This document shows positions 2,821 to 50,194 of a stretch of DNA of 64,000 nucleotides, in pieces; position 1 is the first letter of the stretch, and every line of letters begins with the position of its first letter. Origin of the DNA: Asticcacaulis aquaticus. GTDB taxonomy: Bacteria > Pseudomonadota > Alphaproteobacteria > Caulobacterales > Caulobacteraceae. The stretch lies in contig NZ_JAQQKX010000001.1 of the NCBI RefSeq assembly GCF_028550415.1, positions 186,001 to 250,000 of the forward strand, written 5' to 3'. A program made the translations under genes and the position numbers. The notes below the pieces were generated by a model that did no database searches, was not told the origin of the DNA, and worked only from the letters and a program-made list of their open reading frames with translations.

Positions 2821-3408
2821 ATGGCGAAGACCTCCCCCGCGGGCAAATCCGCGCCCAAAGTCGCTCCTAAGACGGCGCGCAAACCGGTGGCCAAGGCCAC
2901 GGCGAAACCGGCCGCGATCAAGGAGGCCATCACCCGTGGCCCACGCTCGAAATGTCCGATCAACCTGATGCTGGAGGCCGTCGGCGACTCGTGGTCGCTG
3001 CTGATCATTCGCGACCTGATGTTCAAAGGGCGCTCGACCTATAAGGCGTTCCTGGGGGCCGAAGAAAAGATCGCCACCAATATCCTTGCCGACCGTCTGG
3101 TGAAGCTCGAAGCCGCAGGCCTGATTTCGAAATCCACCGATCCGGAAGACGCGCGCAAGTTCATCTACAAGCTGACCGAAAAAGGCGCCGACCTCGCACC
3201 GCTGCTGGTCGAGATGATGCTGTGGTCGAACAAATACCACATCACCGACACGCCGAAGGACTTCCTCGCCTCGTTGCAAAAGAACAAGACCGCCTTCGCG
3301 ACCCGTGTCGTCAAGGACATCAACAGCGCCGTCGCGCCCAAGACCCCGGTCGTGCCGGTGAAGATCGAGCCGAAGGACGAGACATTGAGCCTGTTCGATG
3401 GCTTTTAA
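2821..3408 (+). CDS. HxlR-family transcriptional regulator with Lys/Ala-rich N-terminal tail
   Basis: 195 residues. Residues 45-140 form a winged helix of the HxlR type, beginning CPINLMLEAVGDSWSLLIIRDL and containing the typical Cys45 and the LVKLEAAGLI recognition region. HxlR proteins sense redox or electrophilic signals and usually control a neighbouring gene. Residues 1-40 are an unusual Lys/Ala/Pro-rich extension (KSAPKVAPKTARKPVAKATA) resembling a histone H1-like tail. The C-terminus also extends past the domain. It stands alone upstream of sodB in the same orientation, and no target is evident. Confidence 0.85.
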   Translation: MAKTSPAGKSAPKVAPKTARKPVAKATAKPAAIKEAITRGPRSKCPINLMLEAVGDSWSLLIIRDLMFKGRSTYKAFLGAEEKIATNILADRLVKLEAAGLISKSTDPEDARKFIYKLTEKGADLAPLLVEMMLWSNKYHITDTPKDFLASLQKNKTAFATRVVKDINSAVAPKTPVVPVKIEPKDETLSLFDGF

Positions 3409-3442
3409 CCCCGCATAACCATCGAATTTATAAGGCTAATTT

Positions 3443-3457
3443 TGCGAATTATTCTCA
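3443..3457. promoter_or_regulatory. Fur-box-like 7-1-7 palindrome upstream of sodB
   Basis: TGCGAATTATTCTCA is a near-perfect 7-1-7 inverted repeat centred on 3450 and matches the general Fur-box pattern built on GAAT-n-ATTC. It sits upstream of the proposed -35 of sodB, a position more typical of activation than of repression. Assignment to Fur rests on motif resemblance only. Confidence 0.5.
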
Positions 3458-3469
3458 CAAGTTTTAATC

Positions 3470-3498
3470 TTGAAAAGCAATTTTAGCCCCCATATATC
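3470..3498 (+). promoter_or_regulatory. Candidate housekeeping promoter of sodB
   Basis: TTGAAAA (3470-3476), a 14-base spacer, then CATATATC (3491-3498) resembles the Caulobacter sigma-73 consensus TTGACGS-N10-14-GCTANAWC. It lies about 50 bases upstream of the sodB ATG. Confidence 0.35.
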
Positions 3499-3548
3499 AG
3501 TCGTCAGTTCTTTTATTTAAACCGTTTTCATACAGCCCCGAGGCCGCC

Positions 3549-48997: not shown

Positions 48998-50194
48998 TCA
49001 TGAAAACAGTCCCCCGAAAAATTTGCTGACGCCCATACGGTTAAGGTCATTCCATGTAGCGAACAACATCAATCCTAACAAGGCCACAAGGCCGAATCTG
49101 TAGCCCAGCCCCTGAATGGTGGCATTGAGCGGTTTACGCGCGACGGCCTCGTAGGTGTAGAACACCAGATGCCCCCCGTCGAGTACGGGCACCGGCAGCA
49201 GGTTGACGAAGCCGATGCCAATCGACACGACTGCCGCCAACTGCAGCATGGTCAGGGCCCAGTTCAGCGCCGTAATGCCGGGCGAGGTCTTCGCCTTGGC
49301 GACTTCGGCGGTCAGATCGCCGGTCGTCTTGGTCATACCCAGAATGCCGGACAGCTGATCGCCGTTTTCTTTTCCAGTGAAAATACGGCCAATATAGGTC
49401 AGGGTCGTGTCAAGCACGTCCACCGTCGTTTTAAAGCCCTCGGCCACGGCGTCGTGCGGCCAGTAGCGCTTGCGGTACGGCTGATCGGCGAAGTGCAGAC
49501 CGATGCGCCCGCCATAGACGACCGGCTGCCCCGGTTGGGTGATGACGTCGCGTTTGGGGGTGGCGTCGATCGTCACGATCTGAGCACCGCGACGGACCTC
49601 GAACCGCGTCGCCTGATCGGCACGCGTATTGATCAGGCGCGCCGCGTCCTGAAACTGATCGACCTTGCGTCCGTCGATGGACACCAGCACATCGCCGGTG
49701 CGGAACCCTGCGGCCTCGGCGACGCTGCCCGGCTCGGTTCGGTCGACCAGCGGCGGGCGAATGACCTCGCCGAACACACTCAGCAGAAACGCGAAGATGG
49801 CAATCGCCAGCACGAAATTGGCCATCGGCCCGGCCAGAACGATCAGAAAACGCTGCCACACCGGCTTGAAATGGAAATAGGCCTGTTCGGCCCCTGCCCC
49901 TTCGCGCTGGGTGATGGCGAGGCGGGCTTCCTGCAATTCTTTCTCATCCGGTGACATGGAAGACACATGTTCGTCGCCGGCGAACTTGACATAGCCCCCC
50001 AGAGGCAGGGCGCTCAGGCACCACAGCACGCCGTTTTTATCGCGGCGCGACCACAGGATCGGGCCGAATCCGACGGAAAACCGTTCGATCTTCGTTTTAA
50101 ACAGGCGCGCCACGCTGAAATGTCCCAGCTCGTGAATCGTCACGATCAGCGAGATCATCAGCAAGAATGTCGGTGCCCCCAGAAGTAATGTCAT
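48998..50194 (-). CDS. rseP: Site-2 intramembrane protease RseP (M50)
   Basis: 398 residues. Transmembrane helix 1 holds the zinc motif HELGH (22-26, TIHELGHFSVARLF). One PDZ domain sits in the middle (PGSVAEAAGFRTGDVLVSIDGRKV). The C-terminal helices carry the second metal motif NLLPVPVLDGGHLVFY. The enzyme cuts anti-sigma or signal-peptide remnants within the inner membrane. Only one PDZ domain is evident, against two in E. coli. It lies between dxr and bamA in the conserved order. Confidence 0.94.
   Translation of the reverse strand: MTLLLGAPTFLLMISLIVTIHELGHFSVARLFKTKIERFSVGFGPILWSRRDKNGVLWCLSALPLGGYVKFAGDEHVSSMSPDEKELQEARLAITQREGAGAEQAYFHFKPVWQRFLIVLAGPMANFVLAIAIFAFLLSVFGEVIRPPLVDRTEPGSVAEAAGFRTGDVLVSIDGRKVDQFQDAARLINTRADQATRFEVRRGAQIVTIDATPKRDVITQPGQPVVYGGRIGLHFADQPYRKRYWPHDAVAEGFKTTVDVLDTTLTYIGRIFTGKENGDQLSGILGMTKTTGDLTAEVAKAKTSPGITALNWALTMLQLAAVVSIGIGFVNLLPVPVLDGGHLVFYTYEAVARKPLNATIQGLGYRFGLVALLGLMLFATWNDLNRMGVSKFFGGLFS

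Follow-up and report, generated by a model that had tools for sequence, protein, structure and literature searches.

The window analysed here, i.e. the whole 64,000-nucleotide stretch of Asticcacaulis aquaticus DNA, contains a sodB gene preceded by a short module that consists of a dyad, a palindrome of the Fur type and a promoter, see Table 1. By sequence, SodB is of the Fe type. It scores 285 bits with the NCBIfam FeSOD model against 159.6 bits with the MnSOD model, the curated FeSOD cut-off of 348 not being reached, and of its 14 best matches in the PDB, 11 carry the name Fe-SOD and none is named Mn. The SodB proteins of the genus are mostly 40-55% identical to the other superoxide dismutases (SODs) of the family, yet up to 69% identical to SODs in distant records (68% in Moraxellaceae), hinting at either horizontal acquisition or differential loss.

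Table 1. Features of the sodB locus in the window; distances with a minus sign are counted from the inferred transcription start.
Feature	Position	Strand	Remarks
Upstream gene, MarR/HxlR-type regulator	2821..3408	+	Ends 34 bases before the box; outside the module
Dyad ATAACC-N13-GGCTAA, IscR type II-like	3415..3439	+	CC at 3419-3420, GG at 3434-3435; centre 3427, about -78
Fur-type box TGCGAATTATTCTCA	3443..3457	+	Centre 3450, about -55; from score and conservation in the genus
-35 element TTGAAA	3470..3475	+	Position conserved in the genus; region's top-scoring promoter
-10 element TATATC, spacer 17	3493..3498	+	ATATATS found by pattern in 24/25 genomes, read in the 25th (G125)
Transcription start, inferred	3505..3505	+	7 bases after the -10 element; from the promoter
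sodB, Fe-type superoxide dismutase, 203 aa	3549..4160 (stop codon included)	+	NCBIfam and PDB matches

The palindrome ahead of sodB

The palindrome has the 7-1-7 inverted repeat structure looked for in a Fur operator, with six of the seven pairs matched, and it has the highest Fur-type matrix score in the window (22.4, with the runner-up at 49932 scoring 15.3). This confirms the Fur-box-like palindrome that an earlier note on this DNA had claimed ahead of sodB. The matrix has 15 columns and was built without sodB, using 11 other sites in the genome. As the pattern that found these 11 sites was itself derived from the sodB box, the score is not independent of that box. The independent evidence for the identity of the box is instead the gene neighbours of the motif sites, discussed below. 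A score as high as that of the sodB box occurred once in 60 Markov-simulated windows of 64 kb, and in none of 20,000 simulated stretches of 140 bases with the composition of this intergenic region. At up to three mismatches to the box pattern there is no excess in the window (3 matches against 7.68 expected), i.e. the exact match alone is exceptional within it.

The sodB transcription start was inferred from conservation together with a promoter matrix set by hand from recall. Counted from this start, the box is centred at -55 and lies upstream of the TTGAAA element, in agreement with the earlier suggestion of a centre about 54 bases before the start and outside the promoter core. A promoter beneath the box (TTTATA-17-TATTCT, which would place the box at -12) was also considered and rejected: in the window its score is 8.7 against 12.9, and it is inconsistent over the genus.

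Conservation of the module in the genus and the family

A first search identified the box upstream of sodB in 16 of 16 genomes of the genus. A composite pattern (box, TTGNA, ATATATS) written from these genomes matches once per genome in 24 of the 25 genus genomes, including eight of the nine outside the set it was written from, and its reversed control gives no match. The conserved promoter is ranked first among the promoter guesses in 20 of the 24 genomes and second in the other four (G060, G075, G123 and G068). Measured from its inferred start, the centre of the box is at -55 or -56 in all 24. Mean pairwise identity among 20 non-redundant members is 0.88 for the box, 0.54 for the dyad, 0.41 for the spacer between the box and the -35 element, 0.35 for the 5' leader and 0.28 for the far flank. 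The sodB start codon follows the box centre by 93 to 99 bases in 15 of 16 genomes and by 196 in G014. In this genome (locus L092), the stretch between the sodB promoter and the start codon is longer by about 100 bases, which contain inverted repeats, and the module is intact.

The one exception is G125, where no Fur box is found at sodB (best score 3.3) and none at sodC, the Cu/Zn-SOD gene; the dyad and the promoter are present, and both Fur and IscR are encoded.

Among the other SOD upstream regions of the family, one of 92 distinct regions has a convincing box (L101, score 16.0). In total 93 regions were compared, comprising 14 loci and 79 of 80 fetched ones (L238, at a contig end, was excluded); L112 and L221 coincide, giving 92, and two of the regions, L172 and L183, belong to a second SOD gene in members of the genus. 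The comparison covers the stronger SOD matches, with weaker and fragmentary ones left out. In base-composition shuffles 10 of the 93 regions reach p 0.05 or less, and L101 alone scores within the range of the genus boxes. The footprinting set did not include Fe-SOD relatives from the named genomes, among which the genus did not appear.

The dyad was absent from the earlier note, as was the Fur box at sodC. The CC-N13-GG core of the dyad is found -25 to -22 from the start of the box in 24 of 24 genomes, and the dyad is also present in G125, which has no box, so that all 25 genomes have it. The chance of this is 0.02 per random sequence, with the reservation that the genomes are related and hence not independent. 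Ahead of iscR, the genome has the palindrome TTGACTATATTAGTCGG, which we take to be a type I-like IscR site. At the dyad, CC and GG are spaced as in the type II IscR consensus of Caulobacter (CC-N13-GG; PMC11475020), in the 24 genomes as well as in G125. The mean scores of the dyad against IscR consensus sequences (16.6 against 13.9 for E. coli, 19.4 against 16.9 for Caulobacter) are above all 100 shuffle means, but the difference is modest and the rows are related. For the window's own sequence, the E. coli consensus has its best match out of register with the dyad. All 25 genus genomes encode IscR, and a putative IscR site has been reported upstream of sodB in C. crescentus (PMC11475020). 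A protein binding the dyad would most likely be IscR.

The Fur motif across the genome and at sodC

In the whole genome the pattern TGMGAATNATTCKCA has three exact sites, and 41 sites at up to two mismatches, where the reversed control pattern has 12. The scan of neighbouring genes covered 27 of these 41 sites (25 loci, 30 proteins), sodB being scanned separately. Thirteen of the 41 are located at iron-uptake, ferritin or SOD genes: seven at five TonB receptors and the others at tonB, feoB, a PepSY gene, a ferritin gene, sodC and sodB. The search for the same box at known iron genes, proposed in the earlier note as a check, thus finds it at the TonB receptors, tonB, feoB and the PepSY gene. 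Only two FUR-family matches occur in the genome, one Fur and one Zur-like protein, i.e. there is no further Fur paralogue, and a single IscR is encoded. The Fur matches a solved Fur with an E-value of 2.1e-61; a strong FUR-family match is present in 25 of 25 genus genomes. Since Fur is encoded and the motif marks TonB receptors, tonB, feoB, ferritin and sodC, the palindrome at sodB is very likely a Fur operator.

Some further sites and proteins were observed. Two strong Fur-type boxes, at C16:23215 and C5:58044, have no recognised iron gene next to them and may belong to small RNAs or unannotated targets. One neighbour of each was scanned against Pfam and gave no match, and larger stretches were listed as reading frames. 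A Fur-type box with two mismatches (L128:1501-1515) lies 274 bases upstream of a ferritin-domain gene (1782-2267). In two genomes, partial Fur-family matches under the family cut-off lie at a distance of about 3 to 4 kb from the module at sodB (G052:C15:196986-197177 and G122:C15:142549-142746).

Promoter guesses at the other boxes mostly score 4.5 to 9.5, too weak to position most boxes relative to a start. At one TonB receptor gene, which is presumably repressed, the guess places the box at about -49, and an upstream place alone is therefore no proof of activation.

The sodC gene is present in 24 of the 25 genus genomes, and a Fur box scoring at least 12.6 lies upstream of it in 21 of these 24, the exceptions being G125, G052 and G120 (upstream set L267-L287; the genome's own copy is C14:69937-70452). 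With the first-ranked promoter guess, the box is centred between -27 and +45 in 21 of 21 genomes, though many of these guesses are weak and the range searched left hardly any room for a placement at -55. More weight is therefore given to how near the start codon is: it lies within 61 bases of the box centre in 18 of 21 genomes, with start codons chosen by a text pattern. In most genomes the sodC box is thus too near the start codon, and a role as an upstream activator site is unlikely. Together, the two placements suggest a reciprocal switch in which iron-loaded Fur would activate the Fe-SOD gene and repress the Cu/Zn-SOD gene.

How Fur may act at sodB

Direct control of sodB by Fur is well supported by the operator and its conservation. 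The sign of this control is less certain. We suggest, with a probability of roughly 0.58, that iron-loaded Fur at the box raises transcription of sodB when iron is plentiful, with IscR likely at the dyad and Fur repressing sodC. Here we infer the binding of Fur, the presence of IscR at the dyad, the sign at both genes and the contact with the polymerase. The mechanism could be as follows: (i) iron-loaded Fur would bind at 3443-3457, immediately upstream of the -35 element, and increase transcription of the Fe-SOD gene, probably by contacting the C-terminal domain of the RNA polymerase alpha subunit or by excluding a competitor; (ii) a second regulator, most likely IscR, would occupy the adjoining dyad; and (iii) at sodC the same Fur would repress by covering either the core promoter or the region of the early transcript. 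As Fur would activate sodB and repress sodC, the iron supply would move the cell between Fe-SOD and Cu/Zn-SOD.

With Fur at -55, the core promoter stays unobstructed and the C-terminal domain of the alpha subunit can be reached. Since the sites of Fur-repressed genes, in the available parts of PMC3089636, lie within -35 to +12, whereas the sodB box is centred upstream of the core at -55 or -56 from the inferred start in 24 of 24 genomes, activation is the likelier reading. However, in the Fur-activated genes named in a review the box is some 90 to 200 bp upstream (excerpts of PMC3788343), and compared with these -55 is an intermediate position; that distance is the usual place and no strict requirement. 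The interpretation given in the earlier note is thus supported in part. The support is for the Fur-type operator, its place upstream of the core, the Fe-type SOD gene and the conserved position in 24 of 25 genus genomes, whereas activation itself stays a proposal in view of this intermediate distance and of the reported repression of sodB by Fur in Magnetospirillum.

The main alternative is that Fur occupies the box yet represses or restrains sodB, either by blocking the site of the alpha C-terminal domain or by separating an upstream regulator, perhaps IscR, from the polymerase. We regard this as the less likely reading. The box does sit between the dyad and the -35 element, and at E. coli sufA there is a precedent for neighbouring sites from which IscR activates and Fur represses. 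In Magnetospirillum gryphiswaldense, another alphaproteobacterium in which Fur was located at the sodB promoter, there by ChIP, direct repression of sodB is reported (excerpts of PMC3251581), and iron depletion raised two SOD genes in C. crescentus (excerpts of PMC6120978). However, sodB of C. crescentus is 2.2-fold down in a fur mutant, while the arrays in the same source show no iron response of sodB (excerpts of PMC3751524). C. crescentus is in any case a weak guide, since the other SODs of the family are mostly 40-55% identical to this SodB and nearly all lack the box. Repression also fits poorly with a box outside the repression zone given above, with the contrast between its placement and that of the sodC box, and with iron sparing, which argues against shutting off an iron enzyme when iron is plentiful.

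It is considerably less probable that Fur controls sodB indirectly through a small RNA, or that the box matters little in vivo. E. coli sodB is controlled in this way, through RyhB (excerpts of PMC3788343), the boxes at C16:23215 and C5:58044 lie at no recognised iron gene, and G125 has Fur and IscR and no sodB box. On the other side, the constant spacing of the operator in 24 of 25 genomes favours direct action, the Caulobacter Fur regulon has no identified small RNA in the available parts of PMC11005374, and an Rfam scan of the window gave no family at threshold. Finally, that the box belongs to Zur or to the upstream gene is very improbable: the genome does have a second Fur-family protein, but this is Zur-like, the Caulobacter Zur motif GTTA-5N-TAAC (excerpts of PMC4176598) differs from the box and the box motif marks iron genes, while the upstream gene, rejected as a target on its direction, runs the same way as sodB and ends before the box, which stays with sodB where sequence farther upstream is not conserved.

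Activation by Fur, the reading we prefer, has parallels. In Caulobacter crescentus, an alphaproteobacterium and probably a member of the same family, Fur is reported to activate directly the iron-using enzyme genes nuo, sdh and acnA (da Silva Neto 2009, as cited in PMC6120978 and PMC11475020); the direct targets named in the available parts of these two papers do not include sodB. Of these genes in the present genome, sdhC has no box (6.5), nuoA has a weak one (12.8), and acnA has a one-mismatch Fur-type box (C18:38827-38841) 422 bases before its start codon and inside the reading frame of a neighbouring ABC transporter. With the boxes absent, weak or far away, there is little support for a sodB-like architecture at nuoA, sdhC or acnA. 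In Neisseria (norB, aniA and nuoA) and Salmonella (hilD), the Fur box is likewise upstream of the promoter core, but at about 100 to nearly 200 bp instead of about 55 bp (excerpts of PMC3788343 and PMC3089636). We found no description of the sodB arrangement in the open-licence literature, among the matches listed and in the available parts of their texts. As direct activation by Fur is already reported for other Caulobacter genes, the sodB case would add to known Fur activation and is not a new kind.

The outcome would resemble that in E. coli, where the Fe-SOD is also Fur-dependent under plentiful iron and Fur represses one SOD gene in favour of the Fe-SOD. However, the control of E. coli sodB is post-transcriptional and indirect, while here the operator is at the promoter and we propose a direct sodB arm, and the partner in the E. 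coli sodA/sodB switch is a MnSOD, while here it is a Cu/Zn-SOD that is probably exported (excerpts of PMC3788343). The complete scheme, in which one Fur directly activates the Fe-SOD gene from -55 with IscR at -78 and represses the Cu/Zn-SOD gene at its core promoter, with G125 as a natural control, is tentative and, taken as a whole, somewhat doubtful.

The textbook route by which Fur raises Fe-SOD is indirect and goes through the silencing of a small RNA. If the activation suggested here is true, the same outcome would be achieved at the promoter itself, and the genus would offer a clean system for studying activation by a family of repressors. Iron and iron-sulphur sensors might then converge on one enzyme.
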